In this document: positions 6,910-24,509 of the stretch, piece by piece
How positions within the stretch are numbered: position 1 is the first letter of the stretch
Layout of the letters: the number at the start of each line of letters is the position of its first letter
The notes under the pieces: generated by a model
Seen by the model: the letters and a program-made list of their open reading frames with translations, nothing else
Told to the model about the DNA's origin: nothing
Database searches by the model: none
Translations under genes and position numbers: made by a program
Origin: an uncultured Pseudomonadota bacterium
GTDB lineage: Bacteria > Myxococcota_A > UBA796 > SXON01
Length of the DNA: 64,000 nucleotides
NCBI GenBank assembly: GCA_903900265.1
Contig: CAIUMM010000210.1
Location: 1 to 64,000, forward strand
Direction of reading: 5' to 3'

Positions 6910-7947
6910 TCAGGGCGTAGGCGCGCTCGCACCCACCGCTTGCATCGCCGCATATTTGGTGATCAGGTCGTTCATGTTGGTCGTGCGCAGGTCGCCCCCC
7001 GAAGCAGGCATGAACAGGATCGGCTTGCCAGCTAAGGCTTCGGCGACCTTCAACTTGACCATGTTGTGGCCGCCCGATCCGGCGAGGGCTCGGGCTTGGG
7101 CGCGCAGTCCCTCGGTTCGGGCCTTCGCTTCGGCCATCAGCGCCTGCGCCTCGCGATCCCGTTGGAAGTAGCTCGCGTCCGCCGAGAGCTTGGCCATCGC
7201 GGCGTCGCCGTGCGCGGTCTCGATGGTCTGGTTCACCTGGCCTTTGGCGACCTCCAGCTCGCGCTTCATCTGCTCGGCCGCGGCTTCGCTCTCTGAGCGC
7301 AGCCGGGCCGCTTCTTGCTCGGCGACCGTCTTGTCTTTGATGACCTGCTCGTAGGCCTCGTTGAACTTGTGCTCGCCAAGCAGCACTTGGTCGATGAGCA
7401 CGCCCTCGGGCCCGAGGTAGTGCGCGCACGCTTCCCGTGCCTGGTCGGCTTTTTTGAAGCGCATCGCGGTGTCGTAGTACTGCTCCGACCGCATCTCGTT
7501 CAGCACGTCGCGCAGCACCGTGCGGGTGACCGGGCGCACGAGGCGCTCCTCAACCTCTAGCGTGCTGCCACCTACAAATTGCAGCAAATAGGGGGTTTTG
7601 GATGGGTCCAGCCGCCATGCGATGGTGACGTCGACGCTGATGTCGTTGCCATCGGCGGTCTTGAACCGCAGCGAGTCGTCGCCCTCTCGGGCTCCGGAGT
7701 CTCTGGAGGTCGTCATCGCGAGGTTCTGCAGGCCGACGTCAAAGACCGTCCAGCCGTTGATGATCGGGATGAAGAAGTAGGTTTGGCCGGGGGCGTAGGG
7801 CTCGGGGACCACGCCGGTGCTGCCGAAGGCGGCGAGGCGCACCGTGCGCACGCCGGCCTCGGTGGACTCCAGCGAGTGCGGCAGGCAGCCGGCGAGCATC
7901 CAAAGCGGCATCGCGAGCGCGGTCCAGCGTGGGGCAAGCTTCGACAT
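6910..7947 (-). CDS. SPFH/band-7 domain lipoprotein
   Basis: 345 residues. The N-terminus ends in a lipobox (PLWMLAGC, Cys about residue 20), so it should be exported and lipidated. An SPFH/band-7 domain follows (TVRLAAFGSTGVV to RLVRPVTRTVLRDVLNEM), then a long charged, Ala/Glu-rich coiled-coil (KDKTVAEQEAARLRSESEAA) as in prohibitin and HflK/HflC proteins, and a C-terminal segment ending VGASAPTP. ATG 7947 is preferred because GAGGGAG lies 8 bases upstream; a GTG at 7956 would overlap the preceding gene. A lipid-anchored SPFH protein is unusual, since the family normally has a transmembrane or hairpin anchor. It likely works with the SPFH protein encoded just upstream. Confidence 0.85.
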   Translation of the reverse strand: MSKLAPRWTALAMPLWMLAGCLPHSLESTEAGVRTVRLAAFGSTGVVPEPYAPGQTYFFIPIINGWTVFDVGLQNLAMTTSRDSGAREGDDSLRFKTADGNDISVDVTIAWRLDPSKTPYLLQFVGGSTLEVEERLVRPVTRTVLRDVLNEMRSEQYYDTAMRFKKADQAREACAHYLGPEGVLIDQVLLGEHKFNEAYEQVIKDKTVAEQEAARLRSESEAAAEQMKRELEVAKGQVNQTIETAHGDAAMAKLSADASYFQRDREAQALMAEAKARTEGLRAQARALAGSGGHNMVKLKVAEALAGKPILFMPASGGDLRTTNMNDLITKYAAMQAVGASAPTP

Positions 7948-7949
7948 GG

Positions 7950-8978
7950 TTACCACTCCCTCGTCATCTGCTCGAGATTGAGCGGGTTCATCGCGGCTGG
8001 TCCGTCCGTCGGGACCATGATCACCTGCGTGTTCTTCAGCGCGTCGGCCATCTTCAACCCCACGAGGTTCGACGCCCCCGCGGTGGTGAGCGCGTCGTTC
8101 TCCAGACGCTTGGATTCGGCCTTGGCGAGCTCCACGAGTAAGTCGCCTTCGGCCACCCGCTTGCGGCTGTACAAGTCATATTCGGCGGTGATCTTGGCGA
8201 CCTCCGACTTGCCGCGCTGCTGCTCGACGTCGATCGTCGCTTTGCCTTCGGCCAGCACCCGATTTTTTTCGGCCTCCTCCGACGCGGCGATCGCCTCGGC
8301 GCGGTTCTTGAAGACCATCTGGTCTTGAATCTTGCGCTGCTCGATCGCGTCCTGGTACCGGGCGTCGTAGCTGTAGTGGCGAACCATCACGCCCCAGACC
8401 TGAATGCCCGCCGGCTCCAGCTCTTTGGTGAGCAACGCTGTCGCCTCCGTGGCTTTCTGGCGACGCAGCGCGCCTGCATAGAATTGCTCGGCGTTCAAGT
8501 CGCCGAGCTTCTGGCGCAGCACCTGGTCGGCGCGGGGCAGCACCAGCGCGGTCACGTACAGCCGTCCCGGACCTACGGAGGTGATGAGCTTGTAGGCGTC
8601 GACGATGCGGTAGAGCACGCTGACGTCGACGGTGACGCGGTAGCCTTCCGAGGTCTGGATGTTGATGGACGGCGCGTAGTCGGCCTCTGCGCTGGCTTGC
8701 AGCCGATCGTCGTTGAACTCGAGGATCTGGAGCTTGCGCGGAAAGACGTGAAAGCGCTCGTAGCCGGGGATGACGAGGTGTGTTCCAGGCGCGAAAACGT
8801 CGGTTTGTAGTCCCTTTCCCGTGCCAAAGTACACCTGTCGGATGCCAAACTCGTCCGGCGCGATGCTCACCGTGGTGGTCAACCACAAGAACACGGTGAC
8901 AAACAGCGCGACGCCGCCGAGGACCAGGTACCGGATAAACCCGCCAGAAACTTTGGGAAGCTCTACTTTTACCGCCAT
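7950..8978 (-). CDS. SPFH/band-7 (prohibitin-like) membrane protein
   Basis: 342 residues: one N-terminal membrane segment (around residues 15-36, YLVLGGVALFVTVFLWLTTT), then an SPFH domain (SIAPDEFGIRQVYFG, FAPGTHLVIPGYERFHVFPR, YRVTVDVSVLYRIVDAYKLI) and a coiled-coil with AEAIAASEEAEKNRVLAEGK. The layout is that of HflK/HflC/stomatin proteins, which form large ring scaffolds on membranes and modulate proteases or lipid domains. The start ATG has GGAG seven bases upstream, inside the end of the preceding gene. The partner lipoprotein gene follows two bases after the stop, so the two are probably co-translated as a hetero-oligomeric pair. Confidence 0.88.
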   Translation of the reverse strand: MAVKVELPKVSGGFIRYLVLGGVALFVTVFLWLTTTVSIAPDEFGIRQVYFGTGKGLQTDVFAPGTHLVIPGYERFHVFPRKLQILEFNDDRLQASAEADYAPSINIQTSEGYRVTVDVSVLYRIVDAYKLITSVGPGRLYVTALVLPRADQVLRQKLGDLNAEQFYAGALRRQKATEATALLTKELEPAGIQVWGVMVRHYSYDARYQDAIEQRKIQDQMVFKNRAEAIAASEEAEKNRVLAEGKATIDVEQQRGKSEVAKITAEYDLYSRKRVAEGDLLVELAKAESKRLENDALTTAGASNLVGLKMADALKNTQVIMVPTDGPAAMNPLNLEQMTREW

Positions 8979-8981
8979 GAT

Positions 8982-9596
8982 TCAGCTCCGTTCGCGTTGG
9001 GAGGCCGCGGCGTGATTTGGGGTCGACTCGGCGCCCGCGTTCGTGGCGGCGGTCGGTCGGTCAGGAATAGGCAATGTGGGGGCCAGCCGCTCATCGGCGT
9101 CCTGGAGCTGCCCGAGGTCGTCGGCGAGCGCTTGGAGCTCGGCCTGATAGCGGCGGCGCGCGAGCACCCCGAGCCACTCGGGCCAGAACAGCCCCACGAA
9201 CGGGAGCACGTTGAAGGCGAGATCCCACGGACCCGGCGCGAGCACCATCATCACGCGCGCGGCGATCATGCCGGCGAAAAGCGGCATGAAGCGTTGCAGG
9301 ACGAGGTTCGACGGCGTGAGTGAGGCCCGGCGTTCGGCGCGGTTTTGTTCGAGCGCGAGGCGCACGTAGCGGGGCAGAAAGGTGCCCGTCGACTCCCGCT
9401 CGATGCGAGTTGCTTGCGCATCGTCACCGAGGAGCCCGCGGCACTCTCCCGCGACATTTTTGGCGATCTCCGCGGTTGTGGACTCCATCGCCGCTCGCGC
9501 AGCGGCGGGATCGTCCAGATGCGCGCGCCGCACCGGCTCCAGGCGCTCGATCAGGTTCGCGGCGAGGGTGTCCAAGCGGAAGGAGGGGGGAGCCAT
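8982..9596 (-). CDS. small protein with two membrane helices, linked to SPFH genes
   Basis: Not recognised. 204 residues: a charged helical N-terminal part (about residues 1-100), a hydrophobic hairpin around residues 105-145 (FMPLFAGMIAARVMMVLAPG, then LAFNVLPFVGLFW), and a charged helix (RRRYQAELQALADDLGQLQD) before a low-complexity tail. The ATG at 9596 is preferred to the GTG immediately before it. Its stop lies three bases before the ATG of the SPFH gene, so it should be cotranscribed. It may be an accessory or docking subunit for the SPFH complex; that is inference from position. Confidence 0.7.
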   Translation of the reverse strand: MAPPSFRLDTLAANLIERLEPVRRAHLDDPAAARAAMESTTAEIAKNVAGECRGLLGDDAQATRIERESTGTFLPRYVRLALEQNRAERRASLTPSNLVLQRFMPLFAGMIAARVMMVLAPGPWDLAFNVLPFVGLFWPEWLGVLARRRYQAELQALADDLGQLQDADERLAPTLPIPDRPTAATNAGAESTPNHAAASQRERS

Positions 9597-9652
9597 CACG
9601 GATCGTCGTAAGCGACATCGACGTTCGCCGCTACGTTGCCGGTGCGCGGTCG

Positions 9653-11215
9653 TTACCAGGGCACGTCGGGCGTGTGGTCGGGCGGCAGTCTCCCCGAGCG
9701 GATCAGCGCGCTTGTAGCGGCGAGGCAGGGCTCAAGGATTTGGTCGTCTTCCCAGAACGGGACGACCTCGCGCACGGTCTTGCGGGCGGCCTCGACGCCG
9801 GGGGCTCCAGCCAGCGGCGGTTCGACCAAGCGTTGGCCTCCGTGAAAGCGCACGCCCGCGCGGCGAAAGTCCAGCGCTTGCGCGGCGAACAGCGCTTCGA
9901 TGCCGACGATGTCGGCGCAGCACTCGAGCACGCGCAGGGTGAGCCTGCCCGCGATCGGGCCCATGCTGACGTGATCTTCGCTGTGTTGCACGGTGGGGAT
10001 GCTGTCGACGACCGCCGGATGCGACAGCCCCTTGCACTCGCTGGCGAGGCTCGCGGCGGTGTACTGCGCGATCATCAGCCCCGAGTTCAGGCCGGTGCCC
10101 TCCACGAGGAAGCTGGGAAGATCACCGACGAGATGCCCGGTGCAGAGTCGGTACGTGCGACGTTCGGACTGCGTGATCGCCTGAGTGAGCGCGGCGCGCA
10201 GGTAATCGAGCGCCAGCGCGACCGGCGCGCCGTGAAAGTTCCCCACCTCGACGATGCCTTCGTCCTCCAACCACAGCGGGTTGTCGCACGCGCCGTTCAG
10301 CTCGCGGATCACGATCCCCGCGACGTGATCGATGGCTTCGGTCAGCGCCCCGATCACCGCCGGGGCGGCGCGCAGGCTGAAGGGATCGGGCGCTCGGCCT
10401 GCGTAGGCGAGCTCGGATCCAGCCAGCAAGGTCCGAAGCTCGCGCGCCACGCGCTCCCCGCCTGCGTGTCCGCGCAGCGCCATCGCGCCGGGCGACAGGC
10501 AGCGCAGGTCGGCTTGCAGGGCCTCCATGGTCATTCCGCACGCGACCACCAAGGCGTCGCGTACCCGCTGGGCCCGAAACACCGCCATCGCGCCCATCGC
10601 CGCGGTCAGGGTCGCGCCGTTGATGAGGGCGAGTGCCTCTTTGGGGGTGGGGTCCACGGGGCGCAAGCGGTACGCGCCGAGATCCACGCGTTCGGCGCGG
10701 GTGCCATCCGGCAGAAAAACCGCGCCGCCTAGTCCACAATACACTCGGGCGGCGTGTGCGAGCGGAGCGAGGTCACCGGCCGCCCCGACGCTGCCCTGCG
10801 AAGGGATGACCGGCGTGATCCCGGCGTTCAACAGGTCCAGTATGCGCTGCACGGTCTCGGGCCGCACGCCGCTCGCACCGACCGCGAGCACGTTCGCGCG
10901 GCAGACCAGCAAGGCGCGCGCCAGCGGGATGGGGAGCGGCGCGCCTACGGCCGAGCAGTGGCTCAGAATGAAGCCCCGCGGATCGGCCGCGCTGGAGCCG
11001 GCGGCCTGCAGGCGGGTGCCCAACAGCTGGCGGCGTTTGCCTTCCAGAAGCTCGGTGCCTTCGCCGAAGGCGCGAACCGACGCGGCCATGGCTTTTTGGG
11101 CCTCTCCGCCGAGGACGACGCGGGCTCCGTGCGCGACGGCGGCCACGTGGTCCGGTCGTAGCGCGTTGCCGTTGAGAACCACGGTGCCCTTCGCGGGCTG
11201 GGGAATGCTGGGCAT
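9653..11215 (-). CDS. histidine/aromatic ammonia-lyase homologue lacking the MIO serine
   Basis: 520 residues, full length for the HAL/PAL family. The scaffold is clear: RANVLAVGASGVRPE, PSQGSVG.AGDLAPLAH, LINGA, RELNGACDNPLW, GNFHGAP, GLNSGLMIAQY, EDHVSMGP and IEALFAAQALDFR. Catalytic positions are changed. The tripeptide that cyclises to the MIO prosthetic group, normally Ala-Ser-Gly, is Ala145-Ala146-Gly147 (codons GCG GCC GGT). The N-terminal active-site Tyr (YGxNTGFG) aligns with Phe50 in FGEGT. The second active-site Tyr (YSLRCxPQ) is Phe279 in FSLRAAPA. I infer that it cannot deaminate by the MIO mechanism and is a pseudoenzyme or has a new activity. It lies 56 bases upstream of the SPFH-linked genes on the same strand and diverges from a thioesterase gene. 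Confidence 0.88.
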   Translation of the reverse strand: MPSIPQPAKGTVVLNGNALRPDHVAAVAHGARVVLGGEAQKAMAASVRAFGEGTELLEGKRRQLLGTRLQAAGSSAADPRGFILSHCSAVGAPLPIPLARALLVCRANVLAVGASGVRPETVQRILDLLNAGITPVIPSQGSVGAAGDLAPLAHAARVYCGLGGAVFLPDGTRAERVDLGAYRLRPVDPTPKEALALINGATLTAAMGAMAVFRAQRVRDALVVACGMTMEALQADLRCLSPGAMALRGHAGGERVARELRTLLAGSELAYAGRAPDPFSLRAAPAVIGALTEAIDHVAGIVIRELNGACDNPLWLEDEGIVEVGNFHGAPVALALDYLRAALTQAITQSERRTYRLCTGHLVGDLPSFLVEGTGLNSGLMIAQYTAASLASECKGLSHPAVVDSIPTVQHSEDHVSMGPIAGRLTLRVLECCADIVGIEALFAAQALDFRRAGVRFHGGQRLVEPPLAGAPGVEAARKTVREVVPFWEDDQILEPCLAATSALIRSGRLPPDHTPDVPW

Positions 11216-20339: not shown

Positions 20340-23329
20340 GGGGTCACCGGCTCCTTCGGCTCGCGCATGAACGCGGGGATGCCGGGGGCCACCCAACCGG
20401 CGCCATCTACGTCCACGTAGATCGGGTTGGTCAGCGCGTACGGGAAGACCTGGCCGGAGCGGGGGATGGGGATGACAGGCGAGAGGAAGCTCGACACCGA
20501 CGGCACCGTCGACAGGGCTTCGACCACGACGTCCTGCAGCTGGATCGGCGGGATCTCGACCGGGCTGAACAGCGGCGCGAGGTCGCCGTCCCCCATCACG
20601 CTGACCACAAACCAGCTGTCTTTGCTGACCGTGACGTCTTTGTCGGTGACAAGGCGAACGACACCGTCCTGCAGGTCCTCCTCCACCAGCAGCAGCGCGC
20701 CGTTCTGGTAGACCTCGACGCGATCCACCTTCATCCAGCTGGGGGCCTCGACCTCAATGTGCAGACTGACCGTGCCGTCGGTGTCGATCAGCTCGTCGCC
20801 GAGGGTGTAGCTGGGGTCGTTGATCCAGAAGCGCACGAACGGACCGTAGGACATGAACGAGTGTCCGGCCTTCACGGCGTCGGCGATCGCTTGATCGTCC
20901 AAGGTCGCCGGGTTGTCGGTGTCCGCGGCGACGAAGTTGCGCGGGCAGCCGGCTTCGATCTCGGTCTTGGAGTGGGTGTCGGAGTTGCCGAGAGCGGGGA
21001 TGCGATAGCCGAGGTTCAACAACGTGAACCAGTCGTCGACTTGCCCTTCGTAGCCGTAGCCGAGCCGGTACACGTCGTCGTCCAGATCCTGCTGTTCGGC
21101 GGGGGTGCGCGAGACCATGTCGTAGGGGCGCACCGACGCACTATCGGCGGCGTAGGCGTCGAGTTCGGGCTGCGTCGGCGTGCGGATCAGCTCGAAGCGC
21201 TTGCCGTTGAGCAGCTCGATGGCGTCGAAGTCGAGGCGCATCTTGGCGCTGCCTAACAGCGGATTGACGCTGGAGAGGATCGGCGTGGTGACGGTCCCGG
21301 TGTAGGGATCGAAGCCGTACTGGTCGAAGTAGCCGAGGATGCCGTCGCGGGGGTGCGCGACGAGGCGCACCGGGTCGGTGCCGGCGTTGGCGCCGATCTC
21401 GCCGAGGGTGTCGAGGATGTCCCCGGGCTCCATGCCGGTCCAATCGAAGGCGCCGCCGGCTTCGGCCTCGTAGTCGTGGGCGAGCGGGAAACCGATGTAG
21501 TGGCCGATCTCCAGCGTGGTCGTCTCGAGGCCGATCCCGGTCTGCACCCAGGGCTCCAAGCCCATGTCTTCCACCACCGGCGCAAAGTCGGTGATCGCGT
21601 CGTGGTCGGACGAGGAGAAGTACTCGACGCCTTCGCTGACCATCGTCGCGACGCGGTCGGGCAGCGTCACGCCTGAGTCGAAGCTGGGCATCGAGTGCAC
21701 GTGAAAGTCGGCCGAGACCCAGCCTTCGGTGTCCACGGTGTGCACCAACTGAAAGGTGAGGTCCATCGCCCCGGTTTCGGTGAGGTGGATGGACTGCGTG
21801 TCGATCTCGTACTCAAAGCCGCGGGTCGCCGTCGCTTCGTAGTCGCCGGGAGGCAGGTTCAGCGTGACCTCGCCGTACGGCGCGAACACGACTTCGGTGG
21901 GATCGCCGCCGATGAACGGGTCGCCTCGGTCGGGATGCAGCGAAGGACCGCCGAAGAACGTGACCTTGCCGGGCATGGGGCGGCCGGTCTCGTCGACGAT
22001 GTGCACGCGCACTTGACCGGCCTCCGGGACGCCGAGCGCGGCGCTGATCGTGCCGCCTTCGGTGACGGTGACCGCGACGCGTTCCCCTTCGGGCCGTCCG
22101 CGCACATAGGCCGCGAGCTCCCAGTCGCCGGGGGGCAAGGTGCCCGCGAAGGAGCCGTCGGGTTGGGTGTCTTCGCCGACGTCCGACAGCCACTGCATCC
22201 ACGGGTAGTCTTCACCGGGCTTGTAGGCGAGCACCGACACGCCAGAGAGCGGCTTCATCGAGCCTTCTTCGAGCACGTGGCCGGTGACCGCACCGGTCGC
22301 GTCGCCGCGCGCCGCGGCGAGCTTGTCGTACACGCTGCCCATGTCGCCTTCGCCGACCGCGAGGTAGCGCTCGTAAGCGAAGGATGTGCCGATCGGGAAG
22401 CGCTGGCTGGTGCCGTCGCCGGTCTTGAACGCGCCGAACGCGGCGGTCTGGGAGGACGTGAACAGCGGCACGAACAGGTCACCCGTGGCGGCGGCGAGGC
22501 CGTAGCTGACGCCGTCTCCGGTGCCGCCGACGAAGGGGAACTGGAACGGATCTTGGAACAGGTTCTGACCGGCGAGCGTCGCCCGGTAGACTGCGCCGTC
22601 CTCGTCAAAGCCGATGCCCGGCGCGAACACGTCGACCGCGCCGCCCTGAAGGTAGAAGTCGCCCATCGCCGCGCCGGCTCCGGTGGCCATGCCGATGATG
22701 TCGACCGACTCGGTCACGCCCGGCACGACCGCGGCGTCTCCAAGCTCGGCCATCGGCACGACGTCGTCGTCGTTCTCGATGATCGTGACGGTGGTGCGCA
22801 TCAGCAGCACCTCGGCGTCGGGCTCGAGGATGTAGTCGGTGGTCAGGCGCATGTCGGGGTGGGCGACTTCGGGCAGGCTCCACAGCAAGCCGAGCACTGT
22901 CAAAAAAGGCTGGTCGGAGGCGTCTACGCGGATGATCGCGGCGTTTCCGTCGCTGCCATCGTTCAGGATCGACACCTCGGCGGACGTGTCGGCCGCCGCG
23001 AGGTTGAGGTCAACGCTGGTGAAGGTCTCGGCGAGCTGGTCGTTGCCGTGGCCGGCTCCCCAGCGTGGATCGGGGCGCGCCAAGTCGGCGTCGACCAGGG
23101 TGCCGCCGTAGGGCGCGGGGCCGTAGGACGCGCGGCCGTCGAGGATCGCAAAGCGAACGTGGCTATTTTGCAGCAGGTAGTCCCCGGGCCGAGCGGTGGC
23201 TTTCGGCCCGCCGATCGCTTGATCCAGCGTCTCGATGCGCAGCGCGTGTGCGCCGGTCGGTGCGGGCGCGCACCCCGAAGCGACCAGCAGCGGCAGCAAC
23301 GCCGGAAGCGGCAGGAAAGGGACCAACAT
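20336..23329 (-). CDS. very large PHP-domain (CehA/McbA-like) metallohydrolase lipoprotein
   Basis: 997 residues. The signal peptide ends in a lipobox (LPLLVASGCAP). The first ~330 residues are beta-rich (galactose-mutarotase-like feel: PGDYLLQNSHVRFAILDGR). Two carboxypeptidase-regulatory/Ig-like modules follow (TGHVLEEGSMKPLSGVSVLA; GQVRVHIVDETGRPMPGKVT). The PHP domain then begins at SADFHVHSMPSFDSGVTLPD and YFSSSDHDAITDF, with later HPRDGILGYFDQ and LGNSDTHSK metal ligands. PHP enzymes use a multi-metal centre for phosphoester or carbamate-type hydrolysis. The protein is predicted to act in the periplasm or at the cell surface. It is translationally coupled to the Nudix fusion and diverges from a porin-like gene. 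Confidence 0.83.
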   Translation of the reverse strand: MLVPFLPLPALLPLLVASGCAPAPTGAHALRIETLDQAIGGPKATARPGDYLLQNSHVRFAILDGRASYGPAPYGGTLVDADLARPDPRWGAGHGNDQLAETFTSVDLNLAAADTSAEVSILNDGSDGNAAIIRVDASDQPFLTVLGLLWSLPEVAHPDMRLTTDYILEPDAEVLLMRTTVTIIENDDDVVPMAELGDAAVVPGVTESVDIIGMATGAGAAMGDFYLQGGAVDVFAPGIGFDEDGAVYRATLAGQNLFQDPFQFPFVGGTGDGVSYGLAAATGDLFVPLFTSSQTAAFGAFKTGDGTSQRFPIGTSFAYERYLAVGEGDMGSVYDKLAAARGDATGAVTGHVLEEGSMKPLSGVSVLAYKPGEDYPWMQWLSDVGEDTQPDGSFAGTLPPGDWELAAYVRGRPEGERVAVTVTEGGTISAALGVPEAGQVRVHIVDETGRPMPGKVTFFGGPSLHPDRGDPFIGGDPTEVVFAPYGEVTLNLPPGDYEATATRGFEYEIDTQSIHLTETGAMDLTFQLVHTVDTEGWVSADFHVHSMPSFDSGVTLPDRVATMVSEGVEYFSSSDHDAITDFAPVVEDMGLEPWVQTGIGLETTTLEIGHYIGFPLAHDYEAEAGGAFDWTGMEPGDILDTLGEIGANAGTDPVRLVAHPRDGILGYFDQYGFDPYTGTVTTPILSSVNPLLGSAKMRLDFDAIELLNGKRFELIRTPTQPELDAYAADSASVRPYDMVSRTPAEQQDLDDDVYRLGYGYEGQVDDWFTLLNLGYRIPALGNSDTHSKTEIEAGCPRNFVAADTDNPATLDDQAIADAVKAGHSFMSYGPFVRFWINDPSYTLGDELIDTDGTVSLHIEVEAPSWMKVDRVEVYQNGALLLVEEDLQDGVVRLVTDKDVTVSKDSWFVVSVMGDGDLAPLFSPVEIPPIQLQDVVVEALSTVPSVSSFLSPVIPIPRSGQVFPYALTNPIYVDVDGAGWVAPGIPAFMREPKEPVTP

Positions 23330-23399
23330 GGAAACTGTGGGGCGGCGGCAGGCAGGGCGCATCGCAGTAGGGTACCATGCGACACGAATCGGAGCGCCT

Positions 23400-24509
23400 G
23401 TGTTTGTTGTACTTCTCTCCCTCGTCGCCACTACCTTTGCTTCGGACGGCGCGGCTGCCACCACCGATCGGATCGCCGTCGGCGACGGATCCAACCCGAT
23501 CCTTTTGGATCCCATCGGGCTGCTTCAGCTCTGGGGCACGGTCTACGATTTCGACAAGGACCCTCAGGCGGACTCCACCGGCTACGGCGATCCGGAAGAC
23601 GACCCCGGCGTGAAGGTGAAGCGCGCGCGCCTCGGCGTGGGCGCGAAGTGGGGCGATCTGCACCTCGCGCTCGTCGGTGGGGCCGGCGCCGCCTACGACG
23701 GGTTCAGCGAGGATGAGAAAGACTTTTCGCTGTACGCGGCGACGCTCGGCTGGGACCGCAGCTACGGCAGCGTCAAGGTCGGCGTGGACGTGGGCGTTCA
23801 AGACTTGCCGTTCTCCGTCGACGCGGAGATGGGCTCGGGCGAGCTCACTTTTCAGGAGCGCGGCATGGCGGCCGAGCACATCGGCGACGAGCGCGGCACC
23901 GGCCTGCTCGGCACGCTCGGCTCCAGCAACGGCGCAGTCACCGGTCGGCTCGGCGTCTACAACAGCGGCTACAGCCCGTTCGGGGATGACAACGCCGGGA
24001 AGTCACTGGTGGCGCGCGTAGACGGCAAGGTCGGCAAGCGCAACACCCATGTGCTTTGGGACCCTGCGGGGGCGCGGGATGGCGTCGGCGTCGGGTTCGG
24101 CGCCGCCGGCTTGTACACCATGGACATCGCAAGCTCCACGCTCGCGGCTGATGCGGATGTCGTGCTGCGGGCGGGCCCGGTCTCGGTGCTCGGCGAAGGC
24201 TCTTGGGCGACGGTCACGCCCACCGCGACCGACGTGGCGAGCCCCGAGGTGAGCGACGCCACCACCCGCCTTGGCGTCACCGGCGAGGCGAACGTCGCCG
24301 TCGGGCGCTTCCAGCCGGCGGCGCGCGTCAGCTACTACTCGGACAGCGCCATCGGGAGCTGGACGCAGGTGCTCGCTGGCGTAGTCGTGCACGCCGGCGT
24401 CGCGGGCACCCCCGACATCGTGCGCGTCGGCGCTGGATACGTGCTGCGGCTCGAGTCCGACCCGACCCCCAACGACACGGTACGGCTGTGGGTACAGGCG
24501 CGGATCTGA
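23400..24509 (+). CDS. outer-membrane porin-like beta-barrel protein
   Basis: About 369 residues from GTG 23400, chosen for GGAG five bases upstream and because the protein then starts with a normal signal peptide (FVVLLSLVATTFA). An ATG at 23328 would place the start inside the divergent gene's start. The mature part alternates short amphipathic strands and Gly/Asp turns (VKVKRARLGVGAKWGDLHLA, YGSVKVGVDVGVQD, GVGFGAAGLYTMDIAS), as in phosphate-selective or trimeric porins. It ends in RLWVQARI rather than Phe. Neighbouring divergent lipoprotein hydrolase suggests joint nutrient uptake; that is inference. Confidence 0.7.
   Translation: MFVVLLSLVATTFASDGAAATTDRIAVGDGSNPILLDPIGLLQLWGTVYDFDKDPQADSTGYGDPEDDPGVKVKRARLGVGAKWGDLHLALVGGAGAAYDGFSEDEKDFSLYAATLGWDRSYGSVKVGVDVGVQDLPFSVDAEMGSGELTFQERGMAAEHIGDERGTGLLGTLGSSNGAVTGRLGVYNSGYSPFGDDNAGKSLVARVDGKVGKRNTHVLWDPAGARDGVGVGFGAAGLYTMDIASSTLAADADVVLRAGPVSVLGEGSWATVTPTATDVASPEVSDATTRLGVTGEANVAVGRFQPAARVSYYSDSAIGSWTQVLAGVVVHAGVAGTPDIVRVGAGYVLRLESDPTPNDTVRLWVQARI

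Follow-up and report, generated by a model that had tools for sequence, protein, structure and literature searches.

The AAG Gene and Its Product

The window (the whole stretch of DNA analysed, 64,000 nucleotides) carries an intact gene for a MIO-less paralogue of histidine ammonia-lyase (HAL), referred to here as AAG. Its position and those of its residues at HAL active-site positions are listed in Table 1, together with the genes that follow it. No promoter was found in a promoter scan.

Table 1. Positions of AAG, its catalytic-site residues, and the downstream genes in the window.
Feature	Position	Strand	Basis
AAG gene, MIO-less HAL paralogue, 520 aa	9653-11215	minus	intact reading frame; PF00221; phmmer alignment to HAL; AlphaFold2/Foldseek
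Ala145-Ala146-Gly147 (codons GCG GCC GGT) at the MIO tripeptide	10775-10783	minus	Ala146 = HAL Ser143
Deletion region of the Tyr53 loop (YGxxTGFG), residues 54-78	10982-11056	minus	alignment; residues 54-65 modelled as helix
Phe279 = HAL Tyr280	10379-10381	minus	phmmer alignment; Phe in 26/26 AAG-type rows
Pro276 = HAL Gln277	10388-10390	minus	Gln kept in 0/26 AAG-type rows
His86 = HAL His83, retained	10958-10960	minus	26/26 AAG-type rows
Asn199 = HAL Asn195, retained	10619-10621	minus	26/26 AAG-type rows
Arg282 = HAL Arg283, retained	10370-10372	minus	26/26 AAG-type rows
Phe327 = HAL Phe329 (GNFHG), retained	10235-10237	minus	23/26 AAG-type rows
Glu413 = HAL Glu414, retained	9977-9979	minus	26/26 AAG-type rows
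205-aa gene and two Band_7/SPFH genes, downstream of AAG	6910-9599	minus	no Pfam match for the 205-aa gene

The AAG protein has the HAL/PAL fold. In a profile search it matched PF00221 with 416 bits over residues 80-482, and the motifs GNFHG, NGACDNP, and EDHVSMG, cited in an earlier note on this DNA as signs of a HAL/PAL scaffold, were all present. An AlphaFold2 single-chain model with 27 orthologues as input had a mean pLDDT of 89; the top PDB match of this model in Foldseek was T. cruzi HAL 6v6h (TM 0.84), and ergothionase 6s7j was matched at TM 0.81. In sequence comparison, AAG scored 249 bits against 6v6h and 116 bits against 6s7j. With 408.4 bits it fell below the cut-off of the NCBIfam hutH model TIGR01225 (539.15), as did the one other PF00221 protein of the same genome (500.3 bits). 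This second protein, referred to as SSG, is encoded on a separate contig, C102, at about 22149-23666 on the minus strand, and carries Ser-Ser-Gly, the Tyr53 loop, Gln277, and Tyr280.

Catalytic Positions Lost and Kept in AAG

The alignment used for counting residues comprised 22 ordinary HALs, 26 SSG rows, and 26 rows of AAG type, of which 25 are AAG proteins and one is a Ser-Ala-Gly variant; nine distant HAL-like rows among the 83 rows of the tree (L057, L058, L060, L063, L064, L065, L067, L068, and L150) were omitted from these tables. HAL positions are numbered as in Pseudomonas putida HAL by phmmer alignment, and the PDB titles Y280F, D145A, and F329A/G among the Foldseek matches agree with this numbering.

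The alignment with HAL confirmed two of the three positions at which the earlier note had placed a catalytic loss and corrected the third. Ala-Ala-Gly does occupy the place of the MIO tripeptide, and the Ser143 column read Ala in all 26 AAG-type rows and Ser in all ordinary HALs (22/22) and SSG rows (26/26). Phe279 does stand in place of the catalytic Tyr280. Phe50, however, which had been taken as the counterpart of Tyr53, was rejected as its equivalent; the loss is a deletion of the YGxxTGFG loop and not a change from Tyr to Phe. The Tyr53 column read Tyr in 22/22 HAL, 0/26 AAG-type, and 26/26 SSG rows, and the GFG that follows it was deleted in 25/26 AAG-type rows, the exception being the Ser-Ala-Gly variant. 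The change of Gln277 to Pro is a further loss that the earlier note had missed, and Asp145 was absent from 9/26 AAG-type rows. The idea of three independent losses did not hold: the Ser143 and Tyr280 replacements were common to 26/26 and the loop deletion to 25/26 AAG-type rows, and they are not independent recent events. Judged from these residues, AAG alone should not act as a normal ammonia-lyase.

Apart from the missing catalytic residues, nothing was found in favour of a sequencing error or a decaying pseudogene. Ala146 and Phe279 were invariant in 27/27 orthologues in the alignment, the most distant of which shares 44% identity with the window's protein; full AAG frames of 509-520 aa were present in 5/5 genomes of the window's genus; and dN/dS within the genus was 0.084-0.160 in 10/10 comparisons, well below 1. 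This explanation was refuted by the orthologue conservation, dN/dS, and full frames, and its probability is negligible. Full SSG frames (503-515 aa) were likewise present in 5/5 genomes of the genus, with dN/dS of 0.099-0.146 (10 comparisons). Both genes are therefore under purifying selection in this genus, although they are split there, lying on separate contigs in 5/5 genomes with both frames full. The proposal of long-term selection as a non-MIO protein was thus supported, both by dN/dS and by the AAG-type clade described below.

Linkage and Co-Occurrence of AAG and SSG

A search covered 58 genomes (the window's own included), of which 53 lay outside its genus, together with fetched stretches. 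Both genes were side by side in 38 of these 53 genomes. SSG lay immediately upstream of AAG on the same strand in 38/38 linked loci, and the start of AAG overlapped the stop of SSG in 37/38, by four bases in 28; start codons for these counts were chosen by script, and at the 38th locus the script had over-extended the start. Five more pairs (G059-G063) were adjacent by match coordinates.

Among 71 genomes of the class, the SSG clade was present in 49, and AAG was found in 46 of those 49 at E<=2.3e-103, SSG membership being read from E-values and, where the locus sequence was at hand, from the motif. None of the 46 AAG genomes lacked SSG. A full AAG match was missing from three SSG genomes: in G041 a contig end truncates AAG, G046 carries the Ser-Ala-Gly variant, and in G020 the contig ends inside SSG. 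In a phylum sample of 377 genomes (own included), 46 carried AAG at E<=1e-95, and each of these 46 belonged to the window's order; the observed carriers of the AAG clade belong to one order of uncultured bacteria (Myxococcota by record titles) represented by metagenome assemblies. Out of 235 related loci, the 80 best comprised 42 of AAG type and 38 Ala-Ser-Gly HALs, many of them on the same contigs as in the 58-genome search; the motif pattern applied to these 80 loci missed L125 (= L176, Ala in the alignment) and mis-hit L107 (= L024, GSVGAAGDLAP).

AAG-type and SSG proteins each formed their own group with 100% SH-aLRT, and rows inside the groups were arranged largely by genome family. The earlier note had asked whether homologues with this motif form a clade with conserved neighbours; the partner common to the families is SSG. 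The two groups were not joined in a free quick tree; when they were constrained to form one clade, the tree gained 11.1 log-likelihood units and was not rejected (p-AU 0.70), in a test with six rows left out and each pair clade thinned to 12 rows. It is possible that AAG and SSG arose from a single duplication. The distances within AAG mirrored those within SSG (r 0.79, 276 genome pairs), a correlation that vertical descent alone would give as well.

The linkage bears on two alternatives in which AAG would not serve SSG. In the first, AAG and SSG would be two separate enzymes, and AAG would work on its own as a MIO-free lyase similar to ergothionase, using a substrate that carries a good leaving group. 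To our knowledge, ergothionase is the closest MIO-free relative, and we know of no MIO-bearing partner for it. According to an excerpt of PMC13405746, it is a HAL-like enzyme without MIO, and in this and in its fold (TM 0.81) it resembles AAG. However, AAG is far nearer to HAL, the catalytic loop is deleted in AAG, and AAG overlaps its MIO-bearing sister gene in 37/38 loci and was not found without SSG in the 71 class genomes. Kinship with ergothionase was rejected on bit scores, 6s7j lying well below HAL, and we regard this explanation as highly improbable. The second alternative assigns AAG a new non-lyase function, such as a structural or binding role elsewhere, in which it would merely travel with SSG. 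The 205-aa gene and the two Band_7/SPFH genes, which follow AAG on the same strand in 5/5 genomes of the genus, could be read in this way; however, they were not found at any other fetched locus compared for gene neighbours, whereas SSG is the partner common across families. This second explanation also appears quite improbable.

Of the roles offered in the earlier note, which were a pseudoenzyme, a scaffold, or a lyase/mutase of a new kind, the pseudoenzyme fits best, as the partner of a MIO-bearing paralogue. A stand-alone lyase or mutase is disfavoured by the absence of AAG without SSG in the 71 class genomes and by the start/stop overlap in 37/38 loci. AAG also shows features expected of an activating pseudoenzyme, with its catalytic residues lost, an apparently competent paralogue in the same genome, and purifying selection. 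That AAG is a heteromeric partner of SSG, taken as a point by itself, is likely.

Histidine Pathway Context

Urocanase was present in 63/71 class genomes, and HutI scored over its cut-off in 62/71. Among the 49 pair genomes, 45 had urocanase, 44 had HutI, and 42, including the window's genome, had both. By match coordinates, however, the two genes lay on other contigs than the pair, which weighs against the proposed role. Exactly two PF00221 members were found in 46/49 pair genomes, and a PF00221 search of the 49 genomes revealed no ordinary HAL. The exceptions were G020 with one member, G026 with a third, short fragment, and G030, whose SSG is split over two contigs. With only these two members in 46/49 genomes, the pair is the sole PF00221 candidate for the first step of the pathway.

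A single ordinary Ala-Ser-Gly HAL was present in each of four genomes read from family f9 of the class. The ordinary HAL adjoins urocanase on the same strand in two f9 genomes (G067 and G070) and in G042, which belongs to the window's order. Three other genomes of this order, G036, G039, and G056, had urocanase and HutI and no PF00221 match, which also weighs against it; either these assemblies are incomplete or the first enzyme is an unknown one. At L065, L066, and L067 (G043, G049, and G029) and at G058:C202, the PF00221 match of the HAL gene was interrupted near positions 252-263, where about 350-410 additional bases separate the match pieces; in the L067 alignment, a long insert stands directly before the QDDYS motif.

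Division of Residues between AAG and SSG

SSG rows kept Tyr53, His83, Ser143, Asp145, Asn195, Gln277, Tyr280, Arg283, Phe329, and Glu414 in 26/26 cases each. Tyr53, Ser143, Gln277, and Tyr280 were kept in 26/26 SSG and 0/26 AAG-type rows. The first MIO residue was replaced by Ser in 26/26 SSG rows, which makes MIO formation by SSG a putative step. The phrase Thr-Ser-Gly did not occur in the portions of the open-licence PMC literature that were searched.

The reverse was observed at other positions: Asn328 was present in 0/26 SSG vs 23/26 AAG-type rows, Ser378 in 0/26 vs 24/26, Phe369 in 0/26 vs 25/26, Gln446 in 1/26 vs 26/26, and Met381 in 13/26 vs 26/26. Further HAL-conserved residues kept in AAG were rare in SSG (Ala383 0/26, Gly375 2/26, Arg482 4/26, and Asp491 4/26). 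Directly before the catalytic Glu, positions 410-411 of P0001 were Gln-His in 26/26 AAG-type rows and Glu-Asp in 26/26 SSG rows; ordinary HALs have Ala (22/22) and Asn (21/22) there. Over 123 conserved HAL columns, 9 were lost in AAG only, 12 in SSG only, and 10 in both, compared with about 3 expected in both under independence. Reciprocal loss as an exclusive pattern was therefore rejected, since the losses are not statistically exclusive.

A Putative Two-Subunit Histidine Ammonia-Lyase

As stated in excerpts of PMC11432326 and PMC9002059, HAL active sites are formed by three monomers of the tetramer; the latter describes MIO ammonia-lyases and aminomutases in general as homotetramers with sites from three interlocking monomers. 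Because HAL sites are built in this way and residues are partitioned between SSG and AAG, we read the pair as a heteromer with divided roles. AAG would then be the catalytically inactive subunit of a histidine ammonia-lyase that is encoded by two genes and assembled as a heteromer with SSG. We consider this probable, if by no means certain.

Both genes may stem from a HAL gene that was duplicated long ago. The upstream copy, SSG, keeps the Tyr53 loop, Gln277, Tyr280, and the putative MIO-forming Ser; the downstream copy, AAG, has lost these four and keeps the fold and other pocket residues (His83, Asn195, Arg283, and Glu414). The two proteins would co-assemble into a HAL-type tetramer, both the complex and its stoichiometry being predicted. 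SSG would provide the electrophile and the catalytic tyrosines, and AAG would keep SSG in its active shape. Less surely, AAG may also line pockets common to both subunits, through Asn328 and several residues within 369-383 and 446-491. The pair would turn histidine, the presumed substrate, into urocanate for HutU and HutI.

A stronger form of this proposal, an obligate heteromer whose active sites are divided between the paralogues so that neither forms a working site alone, can be put forward only tentatively. None of the named catalytic residues tested is missing from SSG, which might therefore work without AAG, and this speaks against shared sites; the lack of exclusivity over the 123 columns weighs against them as well.

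The completeness of SSG also favours another explanation, in which AAG would be a purely regulatory pseudoenzyme that binds SSG, senses a ligand with its retained pocket, and takes no part in catalysis. Candidate ligands would be histidine, urocanate, or a different carboxylate bound by Arg283. Consistent with this, AAG keeps His83, Asn195, Arg283, and Glu414 (26/26) despite the loss of Ser143, Tyr53, and Tyr280, and there are precedents for inactive paralogues that activate their active counterpart, namely, deoxyhypusine synthase and the AdoMetDC prozyme of trypanosomatids (excerpts of PMC3663545 and PMC5201418; the subject is also treated in PMC10211241). However, the 12 HAL-conserved positions lost in SSG and kept in AAG fit a need beyond regulation, and we consider a purely regulatory role rather unlikely.

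The putative heteromer can be compared with known systems. Like HutH (PF00221; 1b8f and 6v6h), AAG has the fold, His83, Asn195, Arg283, Glu414, GNFHG, and EDH, and AAG genomes carry HutU and HutI. Unlike HutH, it is without the MIO serine, the Tyr53 loop, Tyr280, and Gln277 and lies under the hutH cut-off. AAG occurs with a second paralogue, whereas the solved HALs are homotetramers according to an excerpt of PMC11432326. The trypanosomatid pairs resemble AAG and SSG in combining an enzyme with a dead paralogue of itself; in contrast, they are other enzymes, from eukaryotes, and the excerpts report complex and activation from experiment, whereas for AAG and SSG both are predicted. No heteromeric or MIO-less HAL pair was found among the listed titles and abstract starts of open-licence PMC papers.

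If this interpretation is true, the pair would represent a classic histidine-degrading enzyme in an unusual form with two parts; in the stronger, tentative form with divided active sites, it would be a naturally "split" MIO enzyme that has replaced HutH in much of one bacterial order. A lineage that combines an active with an inactive paralogue would allow the subfunctionalisation of shared active sites to be followed in nature, and such a pair would offer a scaffold in which MIO groups per tetramer and pocket walls vary separately. Labelling both genes "histidine ammonia-lyase" would then conceal that the enzyme consists of two different subunits.

Other Genes and Variants at the Pair Loci

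Three upstream genes, c1 (no Pfam match), c2 (FG-GAP), and c3 (SDR), were present in 22, 18, and 15 loci, respectively, and were rejected as shared partners, as they are absent beside either gene in the window's genus. A methyltransferase gene lies upstream of the pair in L044, L047, L048, L051, L052, L053, L054, and L062, on the opposite strand in 7/8; the L044 member, which was tested, resembles the daptide RiPP methyltransferase NF041820 (114 bits, cut-off 175). The Ser-Ala-Gly variant (L056:8953-10359, in G046) is a more decayed pseudo-subunit with GLHHG and EDHAPN, and its gene still overlaps that of its SSG partner.
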